NCBI GenBank assembly: GCA_001515945.1 | Contig: LOER01000006.1 | Location: forward strand, 1 to 50,319 | Direction: 5' to 3' | DNA: 50,319 nucleotides | DNA from: Desulfitibacter sp. BRH_c19 | GTDB taxonomy: Bacteria; Bacillota; DSM-16504; Desulfitibacterales; Desulfitibacteraceae | Part shown: piece after piece, positions 9,811-46,359 of the stretch | Numbering within the stretch: the stretch's first letter is position 1 | How the letters are laid out: each line of letters starts with the position of its first letter | Position numbers and translations under genes: made by a program | The notes under the pieces: model-generated | Databases searched by the model: none | What the model was told of the DNA's origin: nothing | The model's input: only the letters and a program-made list of their open reading frames with translations

Positions 9811-10089
9811 CTAATATTTCTCCGCTTTCGTCCACATCACTTGGCTCAGATTTATTACTAGTTTCATTTTGCTATAATTAATAGCAGCTTCCTTTTCATC
9901 TTCTTGATTAGTGTTTGATTCCTCTACATCTATACCTTCCTCAATAAGAATATCTCCATTTTCTAGCATTTCCTGTTCTGAACCAGAATCAATAACGGCT
10001 GCAGCAAAGAATGTGAGAAAGGCTATCGTAAAGATAGCCTTATTTCTCTTTGCTTTTCCAGTTTTTTTAATTAACGTTACCAAAAACAT
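9811..10089 (-). CDS. Small hypothetical protein with N-terminal membrane segment
   Basis: A 92-residue frame with a basic start (KKTGKAKRNK), one hydrophobic segment (AIFTIAFLTFFAAAV) and an acidic tail rich in Glu/Asp. That is the shape of a small signal-anchored protein. There is no good ribosome site before its ATG, and a small hairpin (10021-10039) sits inside it, so it may not be expressed. It overlaps the tiny frame upstream in another phase. Not recognised. Confidence 0.35.
   Translation of the reverse strand: MFLVTLIKKTGKAKRNKAIFTIAFLTFFAAAVIDSGSEQEMLENGDILIEEGIDVEESNTNQEDEKEAAINYSKMKLVINLSQVMWTKAEKY
10021..10039 (-). terminator. Possible weak terminator of the ECF operon
   Basis: GGCTATC and GATAGCC form a 7-bp stem with a 5-base loop, followed on the minus strand by TTTCT only. 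It lies 130 bases past the last clear gene of the sigma operon. The T-run is poor. Confidence 0.35.
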
Positions 10090-10144
10090 TACTAAGAAAA
10101 CCTAAGGGGGTTAGTAAACCTGCTATTCCCATTAATGCATACAT
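10067..10144 (-). CDS. 25-residue hydrophobic peptide
   Basis: ATG preceded by AAAGGAG at 12 bases, encoding MYALMGIAGLLTPLGFLSN and a short VFGNVN tail. It is a single membrane-spanning peptide right after the stop of the preceding gene of the ECF operon. Small hydrophobic peptides at operon ends are plausible but this could be chance or the truncated start of a longer gene. Not recognised. Confidence 0.35.
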   Translation of the reverse strand: MYALMGIAGLLTPLGFLSNVFGNVN

Positions 10145-10168
10145 ATTATAGTTCGACTCCTTTGCCAG

Positions 10169-11149
10169 TTAGTTGCCTTTATTTCCCCAAGTACTAGTTC
10201 CAAATTTGGAAGTAACAACTGCACCTAGTACTAAGGATTTGACAAAGAATAGTATTACTACTCCTGCAAAGGGTATTTGCCTAAACAAAGCGATTATGAT
10301 CAAACCTACTAATACTGCTATTCCCAAACTAATATTGTGACCAAGCCTGTTAAAGAGCTTTCTTCCTAGTAATAGGCCAAGTGCCGCAAGACCCATTAAC
10401 TGAGTAAACCATAATGCCAGCCAGAATATGGGTATCAATGGAATTCCAAGAATGGTTATTAAAAGTGCAATGGTAATTGGAAGAGCCAAGAGCTTTATAA
10501 GAAGACCTATTCCAAAGGATTTGGGTCCATCATTACAAATTCTGTCAATTATATTTTCAGTATTCCTTGGCAGTAAAATGGCAATTAACCAGCCAAGTGC
10601 AACCATCAGAATGCTACCAACAATTTTGATCCACCAGGTTATTCCTGTAAACACATCATGGCTGGTATCTCTGAAAAAATGAGGGCTCTTTATAATAATG
10701 TCAGATGGATTATTATAAATTTTAATCTCTCCACTTACTGTGGCACTAGGATGCTTGCTTACTTTTCCGCCTAGGACAACTATGTCTCCATTTACTACAG
10801 CATTTTCTCCTAAGGCAACTCCACCCCCAAAAGCAACTACATTTCCTGCAACTGGTCCATCTAGATTGACGCCACCGCCAAAGGCTACTGTATCACCTTT
10901 TATAATTCCTGTGGATCTCACAGACCCACCAAAGGCAACTACGCTATTGACTGCACCTTCAACTTTAACAGGCCCTCCAAATGCGACCACATTTTGAGCT
11001 GTTTGTTCGTCTCCAACCTTAACTCCCCCGCCAAATCTTACAATATCATCGGCAGCAAAAGTTGCGGTTGGCATTAATAGCATTGCACCTAATAGCAATA
11101 GGCAAAATATAAAAATTTTATTATTATTTCTCATCATTATTTTCTTCAT
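10169..11149 (-). CDS. Secreted/membrane protein with V-x-F-G-G repeat domain
   Basis: A 326-residue protein. A signal peptide ends near TATFAADD. About 120 residues follow made of short repeats VVAFGGxVxxxG with one unit per strand turn, as in polymer-forming bactofilin-type beta-helices. Then come three to four membrane segments (IVGSILMVALGWLIAILLP, LLALPITIALLITILGIPLIPIFWLALWF split over two helices, LGIAVLVGLIIIALF) in the C-terminal half. The ATG at 11149 is chosen because GGAGGAAAGTG precedes it. It overlaps the preceding gene by 26 bases. It is a clear paralogue of that gene. Controlled by the ECF sigma pair upstream, an envelope-stress or envelope-shape role is likely but is inference. 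Confidence 0.75.
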   Translation of the reverse strand: MKKIMMRNNNKIFIFCLLLLGAMLLMPTATFAADDIVRFGGGVKVGDEQTAQNVVAFGGPVKVEGAVNSVVAFGGSVRSTGIIKGDTVAFGGGVNLDGPVAGNVVAFGGGVALGENAVVNGDIVVLGGKVSKHPSATVSGEIKIYNNPSDIIIKSPHFFRDTSHDVFTGITWWIKIVGSILMVALGWLIAILLPRNTENIIDRICNDGPKSFGIGLLIKLLALPITIALLITILGIPLIPIFWLALWFTQLMGLAALGLLLGRKLFNRLGHNISLGIAVLVGLIIIALFRQIPFAGVVILFFVKSLVLGAVVTSKFGTSTWGNKGN

Positions 11150-12203
11150 CACTTTCCTCCTCCACATCCTTAATCTCTTGCGAAATATCTTCAGAAACAT
11201 CTTCCTTGTTTCTATTATCAGTTTCATTCCCTGTTAGCGAAGCAGGAGTAGACACTTGAACTAGTTTCTCTTTTTTTGCAAACCATGGTCTATTTGTACC
11301 AAATTTTGTAGTCAAGATAACTCCCAGACCAAAAATTGCGATTACCGGGATGACTAACCAGCCCACTATTGGTGCTTTGCTAACAAGCCACAGCACGAAG
11401 ATACCCAGTAGCCCTTCAACCAATAAGTTTGGCTCCTTTGCCCAGTTAAAGGTATTTCTTAGTATAGGCCTTAATCTAGCACTACCAAGTGCCACAGCAG
11501 ACACCAATGCGCCAAGTAAAATGATAACAGGTACCAGTATACCCATCAATATTGCTACCGGAATACCTATTATTGTTAATGTAAGTACCAGCATTGTAAA
11601 TGGATATATAATCCAAGCTGCCAGACCTATTAAGAATGTTCTAAATAAATCTTTACTAAGCTCTAATGACATTGTATTAAGATGCCTGGGAAATATACTT
11701 GCTCCTAAGGCAATTAAACCCAGAAGTCCAAGTAACTGCATTATTGAAGAAAAAAAGGTATTAGTACCTCCGCTTCGATAATTGTGATTTACTACGCTTG
11801 GGTTTGTAGGCACAAAATTATCATGTGTTCTAGAATACTTTTCTAAAACTTCTAATTCTCCAAGATTTTCAGCAGCAACTATTTTGCCACCAATTACAGC
11901 AGTATCCTTTTTTAACACATCACCTTTGAATACTACCACATCACCTGTAACTACCGAGCCATCTGACAGGGTAACATTTCCCAAAAAGCTGACCACGTCT
12001 CCCTGTACGTGACCCAAAACTGTAATGTCACCATTAAAGCTTACAACAGCACCACTTACTACATCCTCTTCACCTATAACAATGTCTCCGCCAAATTGTA
12101 CTATATCATTCTTATGCTCCTCTGCAAGAGAAATTCCTGCGGGAACAAGTAGGATTATTAATAGTACTGCAATAAATAATATGCTTCTATGTCCTCTTTT
12201 CAT
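11124..12203 (-). CDS. Secreted/membrane protein with V-x-F-x-G repeat domain
   Basis: A 359-residue precursor with a signal peptide (ILFIAVLLIILLVPAGISLAEE). A repeat domain with units such as VVSFNGDITVLGHVQGD and VVVFKGDV follows, then three to four membrane segments (LLGLLGLIALGASIF, FLIGLAAWIIYPFTMLVLTL, VIILLGALVSAVALG), and an acidic tail rich in Glu/Asp ending EENNDEK. The second ATG (12203) is preferred, since GGAG lies 9 bases before it, while the first ATG abuts GGAG. The domain order is the same as in the next gene, which overlaps it. Polymer-forming cytoskeletal proteins are the nearest recollected family for the repeats, but the extracellular signal peptide and membrane tail differ from cytosolic bactofilins. 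Confidence 0.75.
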   Translation of the reverse strand: MKRGHRSILFIAVLLIILLVPAGISLAEEHKNDIVQFGGDIVIGEEDVVSGAVVSFNGDITVLGHVQGDVVSFLGNVTLSDGSVVTGDVVVFKGDVLKKDTAVIGGKIVAAENLGELEVLEKYSRTHDNFVPTNPSVVNHNYRSGGTNTFFSSIMQLLGLLGLIALGASIFPRHLNTMSLELSKDLFRTFLIGLAAWIIYPFTMLVLTLTIIGIPVAILMGILVPVIILLGALVSAVALGSARLRPILRNTFNWAKEPNLLVEGLLGIFVLWLVSKAPIVGWLVIPVIAIFGLGVILTTKFGTNRPWFAKKEKLVQVSTPASLTGNETDNRNKEDVSEDISQEIKDVEEESDEENNDEK

Positions 12204-12215
12204 TACCTTCATCTC

Positions 12216-12779
12216 CTAATTTAATATAAATCTTTCTCTTGTTTTTAACAAATATATTAACGCAGCAAAACAAGCGATAATAACTACCGTTACTTGAATA
12301 AAATTAGTTAGTATAAATAATAAGCTTTGCTCCCAGAATGTACTAAACAGAACAACCCAATAGGCAATATCTTTTATTAGGCCTATTGCCTGAGTCACAA
12401 TTAAACCCTGGGATATGGTCACCCAGAAACCGGGTAAAACCAGAACTCCCCAGACACCTAATGTTAATATTACTACCCCCGTTATTAGAACCAATACCCA
12501 ATTTGGTAGTTTTGGAAACACCATGCTCGTAGAAAAACTCTCAGCCATCTCTGTTTCAGTTTGCATCAGTAGTTCCCAATCAATGGTTGAAAAGTCTACA
12601 GGTAACTCCACTACATCCATTTCAAAAAGACCATTCTCAATCTGTTGTAATTCAAACCATAAGGATGAGCAGGTAGGACACTGCTGGCAATGGGAATCAA
12701 TAATTTCTCTTTGCTTAAGCATTTTCTCAGGTTCATCTAATACTTGATGCATTAATAATCCAATATTTTTGCAGTCCAT
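12216..12779 (-). CDS. Zinc-finger anti-sigma factor
   Basis: A 187-residue protein. The N-terminal part has H-C-x2-C-x2-C (SHCQQCPTC, about residues 30-38), the core of the zinc-binding anti-sigma (ZAS/zf-HC2) domain that clamps ECF sigma factors. Three membrane segments follow (WVLVLITGVVILTLGVWG onward). ATG at 12779 is used. It comes one base after the sigma gene's TAG stop and has GGGAG eight bases upstream. A GTG at 12788 is also in frame. The adjacent sigma gene and the membrane anchor make it the cognate anti-sigma factor. Confidence 0.85.
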   Translation of the reverse strand: MDCKNIGLLMHQVLDEPEKMLKQREIIDSHCQQCPTCSSLWFELQQIENGLFEMDVVELPVDFSTIDWELLMQTETEMAESFSTSMVFPKLPNWVLVLITGVVILTLGVWGVLVLPGFWVTISQGLIVTQAIGLIKDIAYWVVLFSTFWEQSLLFILTNFIQVTVVIIACFAALIYLLKTRERFILN

Positions 12780-12780
12780 T

Positions 12781-13335
12781 CTACCCACTCCCTTCTCTTT
12801 TGGTTTCTAAAAGATGACCCCTTAACATTTCTCTTGCTCGATAAAGCTTTGTTTTTACCGTACTAACTGGTTGCTTTAAAATATCTGCTATTTCCTCAAA
12901 TGTTAATTCATTTATATATTTTAAAATTACTACCACCCTGTAAGACTCAGGCAGAAGATTGATCTTTGAATTAATATCCTGACTTAGTTCCTTAACTTCA
13001 AATGCTTTCTCCGGCAGCAAGTCAGCTCTCTTTTCTATTTGGATTGCTTGATCTTCCTTCAGCATTAGCAATTCTTTTTTCTTTCGCAAATAGTCAATGC
13101 ATGTATTTGTAGCAATACGGTAAATCCAGGTTGTTATTTTAACACTTCTATCATAGGTGGCAAAACTTTTATATACCTTTAAAAAGATCTCCTGAGTCAG
13201 ATCCTTTGCCTCTTCCTTGTCTCCTACCATTTTAACTGCCAGTCTGTATACTGGCACCTGTAGTTGTTTAACAAGGACATTGAAGTATTCTTTTTGACCT
13301 TTAAAAATCTTTTCTACACAAACATCTAAATCCAA
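12781..13335 (-). CDS. ECF-type RNA polymerase sigma factor
   Basis: A 184-residue sigma-70 family protein of ECF length. Region 2 contains YRLAVKMVGDKEEAKDLTQEIFLKVYKS and TWIYRIATNTCIDYLRKKK. Region 4 contains LLPESYRVVVILKYINELT with the helix-turn-helix FEEIADILKQPVSTVKTKLYRAREML. The start is a TTG at 13335 after AAGGGATCTGGG. The promoter upstream matches the TGAAAC/CGTA class used by SigW-like ECF factors, so it probably drives its own operon: sigma, anti-sigma, then the two repeat/membrane proteins. Confidence 0.93.
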   Translation of the reverse strand: MDLDVCVEKIFKGQKEYFNVLVKQLQVPVYRLAVKMVGDKEEAKDLTQEIFLKVYKSFATYDRSVKITTWIYRIATNTCIDYLRKKKELLMLKEDQAIQIEKRADLLPEKAFEVKELSQDINSKINLLPESYRVVVILKYINELTFEEIADILKQPVSTVKTKLYRAREMLRGHLLETKREGSG

Positions 13336-13368
13336 CCCAGATCCCTTCCTTCGCCACCTACTAATCTA

Positions 13369-13395
13369 TACGAATACGTTCCATAAATAGTTTCA
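13369..13395 (-). promoter_or_regulatory. ECF-type promoter of the sigma operon
   Basis: On the minus strand TGAAAC (13395-13390), 17 bases, then CGTA (13372-13369). This equals the SigW/SigX-type consensus and lies 34 bases before the TTG start. It suggests autoregulation. Confidence 0.7.
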
Positions 13396-15532: not shown

Positions 15533-15559
15533 TGCAACTTTTTTGTGTTTTTTAGTGTA
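15533..15559 (+). promoter_or_regulatory. ECF-type promoter before the second sigma gene
   Basis: TGCAAC, 17 bases, TGTA: close to the TGAAAC/CGTA pattern, 35 bases before the GTG start. Just upstream TATTTGCAA is repeated twice (15494-15515). Confidence 0.5.
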
Positions 15560-15593
15560 TAACATAGTTAGGGTTGTTATAAGAGGTGAAATC

Positions 15594-16172
15594 GTGGATA
15601 TTAATGTTGGACTAGTAAAAAGGTGTAAGAATAATGACAGGGCTGCATTTGATAGTTTGCTAAGCAAATATGAGCGGTATCTATATAACATTTGTTATGG
15701 ATATACCTTCAACCAGGATGAAGCACTTGATATAATGCAGGAGGTTTATATAAAAATATTTCGCCACATACATGGCTTTGATGAAACTCGCCCCTTCCTA
15801 CCCTGGTTGAAAAAAATAGCTATTAATACCTGCTTAAGCTACAAAAGAGATAGTAAAAAGGTTAAGCAAATATCTTTGGATCAGGAAGCTGGTGTAAATG
15901 AAGGGTCAACCTTGTTGGATTGCCTAGCTGCTGCAGATGATACTGAAGAAACTGCACTATATAATGATACACAAGAAATAGTTATCAAATCATTGCAAAC
16001 ACTTCCTGACAACTATCGTATACCCTTAACCTTAAGGTATATGGAAAACATGAGCTATGAGGAAATTGCTACTGTTTTAAGGCAACCCATAGGTACTATC
16101 AAAAATAGTGTTTTTAGAGCTAGAAATCTATTGAAGAAAAGTCTTCAATCTTACGGAATACTGGAGGTATAA
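15594..16172 (+). CDS. ECF-type RNA polymerase sigma factor
   Basis: A 192-residue ECF sigma factor. Region 2 shows YNICYGYTFNQDEALDIMQEVYIKIFRHI and FLPWLKKIAINTCLSYKR. Region 4 shows LPDNYRIPLTLRYMENMSYEEIATVL with RQPIGTIKNSVFRARNLLK. The GTG start is chosen because GAGGTGAAATC stands before it. The anti-sigma gene follows three bases after the stop. The promoter motif upstream suggests autoregulation. Position before DUF2953 and ytfJ links it loosely to sporulation or envelope functions. Confidence 0.92.
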   Translation: MDINVGLVKRCKNNDRAAFDSLLSKYERYLYNICYGYTFNQDEALDIMQEVYIKIFRHIHGFDETRPFLPWLKKIAINTCLSYKRDSKKVKQISLDQEAGVNEGSTLLDCLAAADDTEETALYNDTQEIVIKSLQTLPDNYRIPLTLRYMENMSYEEIATVLRQPIGTIKNSVFRARNLLKKSLQSYGILEV

Positions 16173-16175
16173 AAA

Positions 16176-16595
16176 ATGTGTAAGATGGATAAAGATTTAC
16201 TGCAAAAGTATATCGATAAAGATATTGCCCCACTTGAAAAAATAGTGCTGGAGAATCATCTTTTAAGTTGTCCTGAATGCCGTAAGGATATAAATCAGCT
16301 AAAGGTAATGGATTGGGACTTAAATAATCTAGATATACCTGAGGTTCCCAAAGAGCTAGCTTCTATCCGTTCCTCTGCACTAGATACTTATTTTGTAGCA
16401 TTAGATAAAGAAGATACCTCCTTTGAAAGTAAGGACATCTTGAATTTTCAATATAAAAACTTAAAAAACACAGTAAGCTTTATAAACTATCTGCCCGGCA
16501 AAAAAATGGTTCAAAATGCATTTAAAAAAACAACTACAAGTAGCAATAGAGAAACAAAAAATAAGTCTTTGCTTTCTAAAATCATTGGGTTATAG
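16176..16595 (+). CDS. Zinc-finger anti-sigma factor, apparently soluble
   Basis: A 139-residue protein with an N-terminal H-x3-C-x2-C motif (NHLLSCPEC, about residues 28-36) typical of zf-HC2 anti-sigma domains. The rest is polar and ends in a Lys-rich tail. There is no membrane segment, unlike most ECF anti-sigmas, so it is either soluble or membrane-associated through its basic tail. ATG with GGAGGTATAAAAA. It lies between the sigma gene and DUF2953 and ends 11 bases before the latter. Confidence 0.8.
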   Translation: MCKMDKDLLQKYIDKDIAPLEKIVLENHLLSCPECRKDINQLKVMDWDLNNLDIPEVPKELASIRSSALDTYFVALDKEDTSFESKDILNFQYKNLKNTVSFINYLPGKKMVQNAFKKTTTSSNRETKNKSLLSKIIGL

Positions 16596-16606
16596 GTGGT
16601 GGACCA

Positions 16607-17308
16607 ATGTCAATAATACTTAATATAATACTTTTTTTGCTATTATTTATCTTAATTGTATTGTTAGCAGCAATGATTATTCCAATAAGATATTCTTTTA
16701 ATGGAGGATATACAAATAGCCTCTACGGTTTTGGTAGTATTAGTGTATTACATTTCTGTAAAATCTTGTTTTCGTATGATACTAATGGCACTATTAGTAA
16801 AATCAACCTTTTTGGTTTTTCCATTAATATTGATCCAGAGACTGCTAAGAATAAGAAAGCAAGAGCTAAAAAATTTAAACTTAAAAAGAACCCTAAGGAA
16901 AAAGGAAAATCTAGTCAAGGTAAGGAAAGCTTCGGTTTTGTTAAGCAGCTTTTCAAAAAGGATATTCTCTTCCATGTATTATTTTTTTTAAGAGATCTAA
17001 TTAATATTTTAAAACCCAAGATTTTAATGATAAAAGGCAAAATTGGTTTTTATGAACCGCATCATACAGCTTGGCTCCAGGCTATACTTTCCTCTCTCTC
17101 TGAATTAAATATTGACTCTATAATTGATGTAGAGACTGTTTGGGATGATGAGTATTATGAGGCAGAACTTGAAATAAAAGGGCGTCTGGTAATAATAGTT
17201 ATAGTCGCTAGACTCCTTAGGTTTTTCATGTCAAAAAATACTTTAAAGGTATGGCGAGTATATAGAAGTGAAAAAAAGAAAAAAAATATCTTAAAACATG
17301 CAACTTAA
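16607..17308 (+). CDS. DUF2953 membrane-anchored protein (YtfI-like)
   Basis: A 233-residue protein with an N-terminal membrane helix (ILFLLLFILIVLLAAMIIPI), a Lys-rich stretch (about residues 80-110) and a C-terminal part including IGFYEPHHTAWLQAILSSL. This matches DUF2953, the family of Bacillus subtilis YtfI, which precedes ytfJ there as it does here. The function is unknown. ATG with AGGTGGTGGACCA. Confidence 0.85.
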   Translation: MSIILNIILFLLLFILIVLLAAMIIPIRYSFNGGYTNSLYGFGSISVLHFCKILFSYDTNGTISKINLFGFSINIDPETAKNKKARAKKFKLKKNPKEKGKSSQGKESFGFVKQLFKKDILFHVLFFLRDLINILKPKILMIKGKIGFYEPHHTAWLQAILSSLSELNIDSIIDVETVWDDEYYEAELEIKGRLVIIVIVARLLRFFMSKNTLKVWRVYRSEKKKKNILKHAT

Positions 17309-17383
17309 GCTATAAATTGTGAGTATCTATAATTGTTAAGACAAAATTAAAATTTAAAAATATAAATTAGGAGGAAGATTAAA

Positions 17384-17761
17384 ATGAACCCAACTGAAAA
17401 TGTAATTAACTCTATGTTCGAGAAATTAGAAAAATTTATTCGTACTGAAACTGTAGTAGGTGAACCCATTCAAGTAGGGAATATAACCCTAATACCTATT
17501 ATTACTGTATCCTTTGGCGTAGGCGCTGGAGGTGGCGGTGGTAAGGATGAAAAGGGTAATGATGGTACTGGATCTGGTGGAGGCTTAGGAGCTAAAATTC
17601 AGCCTAATGCAATGCTTGTACTAAAAAATGATGAGGTAAGTGTGCTTCCTTTAAGCAATAAGGGATCCTTAGACAAGCTGTTTGAAATGGTGCCAGACAT
17701 AATCTCTAAAATGGATTGCTGCAGTCCAAAGAATGAAAAAGAAGAGAAAGAAACAGAATAA
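17384..17761 (+). CDS. ytfJ: Spore protein YtfJ (GerW family)
   Basis: A 125-residue protein: N-terminal helix with MFEKLEKFIRTETVVGEPI, then the hallmark ITLIPIITVSFGVGAGGGGG, a glycine-rich stretch, GLGAKIQPNAMLVLKNDEV and a C-terminal helix. This is the YtfJ/GerW family, made in the forespore of spore formers. ATG with AGGAGGAAGATTAAA. The conserved neighbour DUF2953 strengthens the call. It shows that the organism belongs to a spore-forming lineage. Confidence 0.93.
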   Translation: MNPTENVINSMFEKLEKFIRTETVVGEPIQVGNITLIPIITVSFGVGAGGGGGKDEKGNDGTGSGGGLGAKIQPNAMLVLKNDEVSVLPLSNKGSLDKLFEMVPDIISKMDCCSPKNEKEEKETE

Positions 17762-44448: not shown

Positions 44449-46359
44449 AGCTAATCTCTCACGAAATTTCGCCCTCTCAGAACCGGACATGCCCAATTAA
44501 GGCATCCGGCTCCCCATATGAGCCTCTTTACACATATGCTGAATTAAGGTTAACTAAAGATTTAGGATTTTCTAGTGGATAGAGCTTCAACATCTTATTG
44601 AATTTACTCCACTCTAAATTATTCCTTTGACTACGCCGATTAAGCCATTTTGCTAGCAGAATAATGATTTGCCTTTTATAGTTCAATAGATTTTGCCAGT
44701 TATCACTAACACCATAGTATTGATAGTGACCCCTTAGTTTAGAGTTTACTGTTTTCCATATTTCTTTTAGGGATTGATGTCTATTTTCCTTAATCCATTG
44801 AGCAAAATCTTTCACCTTTGCGTTATATTTCTTTCGTGCTGTTTTCCATTTCAATTTGAAGCGTCCTTTTCTACTTCTTCCGCAGTAGTGGGTAATTCCC
44901 AGAAAGTCAAAAGTCTCAGGTTTTCCATCGCCACGTCTTTTTGCATCTCTCTCAGCAAACCGACCAAATTCTATAATTCTTGTTTTCTCTTCAGCTACTT
45001 CTAGCCCGAATTTTGCCAGTCTGTCCTTTAATGATTGGTAGAAAAGTTGTGCATCTCTCTTATATTGGAAACAAACTACGAAGTCATCAGCATACCTTGT
45101 TAGGTATGCTTCACCAATACTCATTTTTCTAATAACTTTGTCAAACCATGGGTCAAGGGTGTAGTGAAGATATATATTTGCCAGTAACGGCGATAAGCTA
45201 CCCCCTTGCGGGACACCTTCTGTAGTGTTGATGAAAGTGTCTTCTTCCATTATTCCTGCTTTGAGAAAACGTTTAACTAACCTGAGTATTTTGGTGTCTT
45301 TAACTCGGTGTTCTAGCATTTTCATTAGCCATTCGTGGTCCACATGATCGAAAAAGCCACGAATGTCTGCTTCAACTATATAGCTTACTTTCTTTGTTCC
45401 TATGTTACGGCTTAAGTCTTTTAGAGCTTCATGACAGTTTCTTTTTGGTCTAAATCCAAAGGAGAAATCAAGGAAGTCTTGTTCGTATATGCTTTCTAGT
45501 ATGATAACTAGTGCTGTTTGAACCAGTTTATCTTCTAAAGCTGGGATTCCAAGCGGTCTCATTTTATTGCTTCCTGCTTTGGGAATATACTTCCTTCTTA
45601 CTGGGAGTGGTTTATATGTACCTCTCTTCAGCTTCTCCAGTAGGTTGATTAGATTCTCCTCAAGATGTAATTTGTAAATCTCTTTAGTTTCTCCATCAAT
45701 TCCAGGGGCAGCCGAGCTTGATACTCTTTTGAAAGCTTCTCTTAATGTTCCTTTACCCATAAGATGAGCTAGTGAACAGAATTTGCTACTTTTATCTGCC
45801 CTTGCACGTTGTGCTATGTCTGCAAGTTTTGTTCTCACTGTTATCCTGGTTCTGAGTCCAGGCAATGTGTCGTTTGCATACGGTCTCATATGTCACTCTC
45901 CTTCCCTCTTTCCGGCGTTACCCGTTTTCATCGGTACTATGAGAGTGTCCGACTTCCCATTGGCATTTGCCTCTCTTACCTCTTCAGCTTGTTTGGCATA
46001 CTTCTCTATGGTGAGAAGACCGTTGGGATCTCCCTGGGTTTCCACACATTCTTAGTGTTCTGCTAGGTATGGTCTTCGACCCCGGATAGGTCACCTTGTC
46101 CTCGCCTTATACGCACAAGGTGATATTGCTTTCCACGTTCCCGACCGTTTCTGCCTCTATCATTAGTTACAGAGTTTTCGGGGCTCAATCCCGTTCACCG
46201 CTGGGATACCACCCAGTCGATTCTACCTCGCTGACTTTCTGTCTACGCTTAAAACACTACGTTACCGCAATGCCTCCAAGACTCGATACGAGGCGGATGG
46301 CTAGTCCTTACCTCGGCAGGATCTCCCCCTGCTAGAATGTGCGACCTGCCAGGACGCAC
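44449..46359 (-). mobile_element. Group II intron
   Basis: The 5' end is placed at 46359, where the minus strand begins GTGCGTCC. Domain V is seen near the 3' end as GAGCCGGATGCC ... GGCATGTCCGGTTC (about 44485-44525), followed by a domain VI-like hairpin GTGAG/CTCAC. The exact 3' end (near 44449) is approximate. It contains one reverse-transcriptase gene in domain IV. The DNA on both sides is the split attC-like palindrome I. The RT lacks an endonuclease domain, so integration would use a nicking-independent route. Confidence 0.8.
44528..45889 (-). CDS. Group II intron reverse transcriptase/maturase
   Basis: A 453-residue RT. Motifs: KMRPLGIPALEDKLVQTAL, FSFGFRPKRNCHEAL, VEADIRGFFDHVDH, GVPQGGSLSPLLANI and the catalytic TRYADDFVV. 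The maturase (X) domain includes LRGHYQYYGVSDNW and KWLNRRSQRNN. There is no HNH endonuclease at the C-terminus. The class (C, D or E type) could not be assigned safely; C-terminal blocks recall class D/E rather than the attC-targeting class C. Confidence 0.93.
   Translation of the reverse strand: MRPYANDTLPGLRTRITVRTKLADIAQRARADKSSKFCSLAHLMGKGTLREAFKRVSSSAAPGIDGETKEIYKLHLEENLINLLEKLKRGTYKPLPVRRKYIPKAGSNKMRPLGIPALEDKLVQTALVIILESIYEQDFLDFSFGFRPKRNCHEALKDLSRNIGTKKVSYIVEADIRGFFDHVDHEWLMKMLEHRVKDTKILRLVKRFLKAGIMEEDTFINTTEGVPQGGSLSPLLANIYLHYTLDPWFDKVIRKMSIGEAYLTRYADDFVVCFQYKRDAQLFYQSLKDRLAKFGLEVAEEKTRIIEFGRFAERDAKRRGDGKPETFDFLGITHYCGRSRKGRFKLKWKTARKKYNAKVKDFAQWIKENRHQSLKEIWKTVNSKLRGHYQYYGVSDNWQNLLNYKRQIIILLAKWLNRRSQRNNLEWSKFNKMLKLYPLENPKSLVNLNSAYV

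Follow-up and report, generated by a model that had tools for sequence, protein, structure and literature searches.

Organization of the operon

We analysed a 50,319-nucleotide stretch of DNA from Desulfitibacter sp. BRH_c19 (contig LOER01000006.1, positions 1 to 50,319 of the forward strand; hereafter the window), and within it an operon in which genes for an extracytoplasmic function (ECF) sigma factor and a membrane anti-sigma factor are followed by two genes, here called bf1 and bf2, for predicted exported, bactofilin-like membrane proteins. The order on the minus strand of 10169-13395 is ECF-type promoter, ECF sigma, anti-sigma, bf1 and bf2, and the features are as follows (aa, amino acids; TM, transmembrane; pLDDT, predicted local distance difference test).

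13369..13395, minus strand: ECF-type promoter, TGAAACTATTTATGGAACGTATTCGTA, exact match to TGAAAC-N17-CGTA (spacer 17)
12781..13335, minus strand: ECF sigma factor, 184 aa, TTG start; Pfam Sigma70_r2 (7e-21) and Sigma70_r4_2 (3e-14), both above cut-off
12216..12788, minus strand: membrane anti-sigma factor, 190 aa; HxxxCxxC zinc motif, several predicted TM segments, no large outside domain
11124..12212, minus strand: bf1, predicted exported bactofilin-like membrane protein, 362 aa; Pfam Bactofilin 17.0 bits, under the 27.9 cut-off
11868..12107, minus strand: predicted beta-helix of bf1, about residues 36-115; AlphaFold2 pLDDT about 95 in most of it
11307..11762, minus strand: predicted membrane domain of bf1, residues 151-302; the GIP motif is unchanged throughout the alignment
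10169..11149, minus strand: bf2, predicted exported bactofilin-like membrane protein, 326 aa; start moved from 11227
10709..11047, minus strand: predicted beta-helix of bf2, about residues 35-147; AlphaFold2 pLDDT 86-98 over most of it
10211..10654, minus strand: predicted membrane domain of bf2, residues 166-313; about five TM helices in the model

The genes are tightly packed on one strand: the sigma and anti-sigma genes overlap, bf2 overlaps bf1, and 33 nucleotides separate the end of the promoter from the sigma start. The listed start of bf2, 11227, is too early; the start was assigned to the ATG at 11149 because a ribosome-binding site, GGAGGAGG, precedes that codon. A preliminary description of this DNA had named a promoter, a sigma factor, a membrane anti-sigma factor and two paralogous proteins, all of which were located on the minus strand, and had given the unit a span of 10067-13395, of which the high end stands but the low end does not. 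A 25-aa hydrophobic open reading frame (ORF) after bf2 (10067-10144, minus strand) is absent in a congener and was not seen in six other loci with a bf pair; it probably arose by chance. Since this ORF is not conserved in the congener, the low end of the unit was set at 10169.

The sigma protein contains sigma-70 regions 2 and 4 only and its gene lies beside an anti-sigma gene, which places it among the ECF factors; its best NCBIfam match was SigW-like, under the equivalog cut-off. The element upstream of its gene is a predicted promoter of autoregulatory type, and congener G002 retains both promoter elements with an altered spacer (the footprint is shared with the congener). No Pfam family above cut-off was found for the window anti-sigma protein, which was assigned by motif and position; HxxxCxxC together with a membrane segment places it with the zinc-associated anti-sigma factors (ASDI type).

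Predicted fold of bf1 and bf2

The two bf proteins are paralogues (26% identity; tblastn E 9.6e-12). AlphaFold2 models were built with a 39-row alignment and reached a mean pLDDT of 85.3 for bf2 and 77.3 for bf1. Each model consists of an N-terminal hydrophobic helix, then a beta-helix, spanning about residues 36-145 in bf2 and 37-114 in bf1, then a helical membrane domain. Bactofilin structures occupied the top three rows of the VIA-align comparison for both models, above other beta-helices: bf2 aligned to bactofilin 6rib with a Z of 15.0 (1.4 Å over 96 residues; first non-bactofilin entry 10.2), and bf1 to the same structure with a Z of 11.4 (2.4 Å over 78 residues; first non-bactofilin entry 8.4). 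The clear ranking of bactofilins is due to VIA-align; the Foldseek list contained nothing at E<=0.001 and had a bactofilin 12th by E-value.

Nine of the 14 members of the A1 profile matched PF04519 at E<=0.1 (best 5.8e-10), and the A1 profile found bactofilin A among PDB sequences at 0.0018, closely followed by other beta-helices, while the A3 alignment profile found none there at E<=0.1. The V-x-F-G-G domain of the preliminary description is clear in bf2 but weak in bf1; its beta-helix-like character is borne out by the models, in which both proteins contain a bactofilin-type beta-helix and are related to each other. On the strength of the models, the bf family is predicted to be a divergent, exported relative of bactofilin. 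The source genome (G000) also encodes one canonical bactofilin, apart from the operon (L230, C47:111305-111598; 102.4 bits).

No family in Pfam or NCBIfam was found for the membrane domain, and the VIA-align comparison barely covered that part. The family is most strongly conserved there, with the GIP motif and an invariant P and G, and a paralogue in the same genome (L033:6262-6984, G000 contig 3) has a signal peptide and the membrane domain but lacks the beta-helix. Both observations would be expected if the membrane domain were the working part, in transport, lipid handling or a protease-like activity, and the beta-helix a non-polymerising cap or binding module. Against this, the beta-helix, the part with a recognizable fold, is retained in nearly all members seen, and the invariant columns are G, P, I and T, with no catalytic residue pattern among them. 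We regard such a division of labour as decidedly unlikely.

Predicted export and membrane topology

Both proteins carry a predicted signal peptide with an AxA-type end. Among the 39 aligned sequences, 32 have an AxA-type motif at residue 10 or later and before the beta-helix; of the seven that do not, several are rows whose N-terminus had been trimmed. The mean number of lysine plus arginine residues over the 39 sequences was 1.95, 2.67 and 2.41 in the predicted inside stretches and 0.00 and 0.08 in the predicted outside loops; this positive-inside pattern therefore places the beta-helix, by prediction, outside the cell. Both the export and the membrane linkage put forward in the preliminary description are supported by these features and by the predicted polytopic membrane domain of each protein. 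A search for Omp85 gave no match in the source genome and gave one in 7 of 14 controls. An outer membrane is therefore unlikely, and 'outside' here is probably the space between membrane and wall.

Canonical bactofilins are, in contrast, usually cytosolic, as the preliminary description also had it, and carry a short membrane-targeting peptide. According to the available part of PMC12448750, they are typically found at the inner face of the membrane, and N-terminal TM helices are predicted in only about 3.2% of them. The bf proteins, with their predicted signal peptides and loop charges, are predicted to depart from the cytosolic pattern without export signal.

Linkage of bf genes to ECF sigma factors

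A search with bf1 of 61 neighbourhood genomes gave a match in 13. With the A1 profile at E<=1e-8, the family was detected in 98 of 398 genomes of the phylum (94 of 393 good-quality genomes), that is in about a quarter of those sampled, and is therefore no curiosity. We read 93 loci, comprising 12 from the first round, 80 regions fetched roughly by rank from the phylum-wide matches, and the window; L031, a fragment only, was dropped, and weaker phylum-wide matches lie outside this sample. An ECF sigma gene was found directly upstream on the same strand in 38 of the 93 loci, representing 23 of 44 families, and only 3 of the 41 ECF matches within these loci were located elsewhere. It was not seen adjacent in the other 55, five of which (L064, L068, L115, L118, L120) had less than 1.5 kb of upstream sequence and may be false negatives. 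In view of these 55 loci, the family extends beyond ECF systems.

A scan of named genomes returned 64 loci, some on contigs shared with the 93-locus set, ranging from Thermosediminibacter, Fervidicola and Tepidanaerobacter through cyanobacteria, Rokubacteria, WOR-1, Zixibacteria and Opitutus to rhizobia. An ECF gene lay upstream in 18 of these, 12 of which were outside Bacillota-type records. On the tree, linkage was clustered (17 changes compared with 33.4 in shuffles) and was gained or lost at least 12 times. At L024:6400-6600 (G004), an apparent remnant of a broken ECF sigma gene, in two frames, lies ahead of the bf gene.

The promoter pattern TGAA[AC][CT]-N15-18-CGT was present in the 440 nucleotides at the start of 14 of the 38 linked sigma genes, compared with 2.2% of 3,800 windows drawn at random from the same loci and none of the 55 unlinked family genes; a relaxed pattern gave 16 of 38, 7.8% and 3 of 55, respectively. 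These promoters and the operon linkage conserved across families support the ECF control claimed in the preliminary description, as far as sequence can indicate it. Conceivably, the sigma and bf genes are mere neighbours without common regulation, and linkage has indeed been lost in many lineages. The 3 ECF matches elsewhere would, however, lead one to expect a few percent of linked loci at most, not 38 of 93, and the overlapping genes, shared strand and promoter enrichment also oppose chance proximity, which we consider very improbable.

The sigma factors themselves appeared to be related. By a hand tally, the module's own sigma factor was the best match to the window sigma in 23 of 37 other module-bearing genomes, where the per-genome numbers of ECF matches would lead one to expect about 11 by chance; G148 was not readable and was scored as a miss. 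In both congeners an exact TGAAAC/CGTA match also precedes an operon for membrane-fusion, resistance-nodulation-division and outer-membrane efflux proteins; the two sites fail to align, and this second sigma target is therefore a lead only. Genes for a membrane-fusion protein, an AcrB-type pump and a TolC-type outer-membrane efflux protein were noted at L228:2808-8441, in a genome without an Omp85 match and with an ECF-type promoter match ahead of them in both congeners.

Anti-sigma factors and a possible sensing role

The gene between sigma and bf encoded an HxxxCxxC motif in 46 of 56 linked loci; in the other 10 the zinc motif was missing from the gene picked. For the Rokubacteria records, which are GC-rich, the ORF picked is probably a spurious one, and another frame of L164 encodes a multi-TM protein. 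Also in L164, an extra domain, by eye perhaps of secretin/STN type, precedes the beta-helix, and Rokubacteria loci L177, L178, L180 and L186 contain ORFs of a length similar to that of L164, about 407 aa.

Crude hydropathy counts for the 56 in-between genes gave two TM segments in 19, three in 17, four in 11, one in 3 and none in 6. The anti-sigma factors of bf units are thus mostly multi-TM, whereas SigW-type anti-sigma factors are single-TM. These properties bear on the main rival explanation, in which bf1 and bf2 are co-sensors: the outside beta-helix would sense the state of the wall or membrane, and the helices would hold or release the anti-sigma factor. RseB and YhdK, which are co-transcribed helpers of anti-sigma factors, provide precedents. 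The window anti-sigma factor itself lacks an outside sensor domain, most of its counterparts (47 of 56) have 2-4 TM segments, and the adjacent three-gene order is conserved across 23 families, all of which would suit a sensing partner. A dedicated partner would not, on the other hand, be expected in the 55 loci where no ECF sigma gene is adjacent, nor to part from sigma as often as the at least 12 changes on the tree require, and beside cdaA, cdaR and glmM the family is kept with or without sigma. We see a limited chance that the bf proteins are co-sensors.

Genes adjoining bf in other genomes

The cdaA, cdaR (YbbR) and glmM genes neighbour bf in 12 loci from three families. In all five loci whose gene order was examined (L023, L072, L075, L077, L078), bf immediately precedes cdaA on the same strand, and in L075, L077 and L078 a single strand carries sigma, anti-sigma, bf, cdaA, cdaR and glmM. 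The DAC/CdaA_N and YbbR domains were confirmed by Pfam on one representative each, and glmM was named by eye. This operon, which serves cyclic di-AMP (c-di-AMP) and wall-precursor synthesis, is absent from the window, and to our knowledge bf has not been recognized as a part of it. The adjacency suggests that the family serves the control of turgor and peptidoglycan.

The gene immediately after bf encodes a DUF4097-like protein in five loci (L028, L090, L094, L103, L112; Pfam on L094 only). DUF4097 is the Toastrack domain of the phage shock protein (PSP)/Lia systems, which resemble the bf units in having beta-helical envelope-stress partners. Pfam found no PspA, PspC or LiaI-LiaF-TM among the window operon genes, and no DUF4097 gene is present in that operon. 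Toastrack is predicted to be intracellular, according to the available part of PMC11237479.

History of the tandem pair

Two bf genes were found in 8 of the 93 loci, all sigma-linked and from four families. In a 101-row tree the upstream partners of all 8 pairs formed one set (100/97), and 6 of the 8 downstream partners formed another (96/89); bf2 of the window and that of the congener fell in a part of the tree without resolution, and the nearest row to window bf2 outside the genus was the second partner of L096. As the upstream partners form a single clade, the pair is probably old and does not reflect recent duplication. The same clade suggests, as a reading of the sequences, two non-redundant roles for the members of the pair.

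Proposed function

In the explanation that we favour, and to which we give an even chance of being correct, the operon responds to envelope stress, controls its own transcription and produces two exported bactofilin-type proteins that are embedded in the membrane and act as a scaffold. In the unstressed cell, the membrane anti-sigma factor would hold the ECF sigma factor, as its family suggests. Membrane or wall stress would free sigma, which would then transcribe its own operon from the TGAAAC/CGTA promoter. The predicted signal peptides would export bf1 and bf2, about five helices would keep them in the membrane, and the beta-helix would, judging by loop charges and models, lie between membrane and wall. 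Finally, and this is the weakest step, bf1 and bf2, probably together, would form a scaffold that stabilizes the membrane or steers wall synthesis. The finding of the family without a local sigma gene implies that regulation of that sigma is probably not the main task of the family. Together with the position of the family beside wall-precursor and c-di-AMP genes, this favours an effector over a dedicated co-sensor, as far as gene content can tell.

Several observations weigh against the scaffold operon. The curated PF04519 cut-off (27.9) was reached by neither protein, with 17.0 bits for bf1 and no match at E<=1 for bf2. No ECF gene was seen beside the family member in the cyanobacterial and rhizobial loci among the 64. 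The exact promoter pattern was not enriched across the genome of G000 (12 matches compared with 23 for the reversed control); autoregulation, but no wider regulon, is therefore proposed, from sequence only. Furthermore, the subunits of bactofilin filaments stack end to end, and one end of each bf protein is tied to the membrane domain, which could block stacking. We regard the 'envelope polymer' of the preliminary description as a plausible hypothesis. An outer-face cytoskeleton, in which a bf1/bf2 bactofilin heteropolymer would both report envelope strain to the ECF switch and resist it, as an ancient module reused across phyla, goes further and seems to us unlikely.

The operon shares its ECF sigma factor, TGAAAC/CGTA autoregulatory-type promoter and zinc-motif membrane anti-sigma factor with the SigW-type systems of Bacillus; the output genes differ. 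With bactofilins (PF04519; Thermus 6rib/6ria, Caulobacter BacA 2n3d) bf1 and bf2 have the predicted beta-helix fold in common, to which they add an export signal and a polytopic membrane domain. Bactofilin homologues are also known from archaea, the halofilins, as stated in the available part of PMC12186497. The system was initially called new, which the arrangement justifies and the fold does not. No description of this unit was found in the literature searched, which did not cover the 2021 ECF reclassification; the term 'ECF' is absent from the available part of PMC12448750, and both 'bactofilin' and 'ECF' from that of PMC11237479.

Bactofilins have been studied as cytosolic scaffolds. If a widespread, exported and membrane-embedded branch is indeed tied to ECF switches and to the c-di-AMP/GlmM operon, the same fold would work on the opposite side of the membrane, and the family would offer a direct handle on the stimulus of multi-TM anti-sigma factors. 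Similar gene sets in many bacterial families hint at an unstudied form of envelope protection.

Other features of the window

A second set of genes at 15543-17761 (plus strand) runs away from the first unit and comprises an ECF sigma gene, a putative anti-sigma gene, and genes for a membrane protein and a sporulation YtfJ protein (Pfam Spore_YtfJ 7.6e-25). A gene resembling this second sigma gene occupies a comparable position in the congener (L021 12839). At 44528-45889 (minus strand) lies a reverse-transcriptase-like ORF that, by eye, resembles a group II intron protein.

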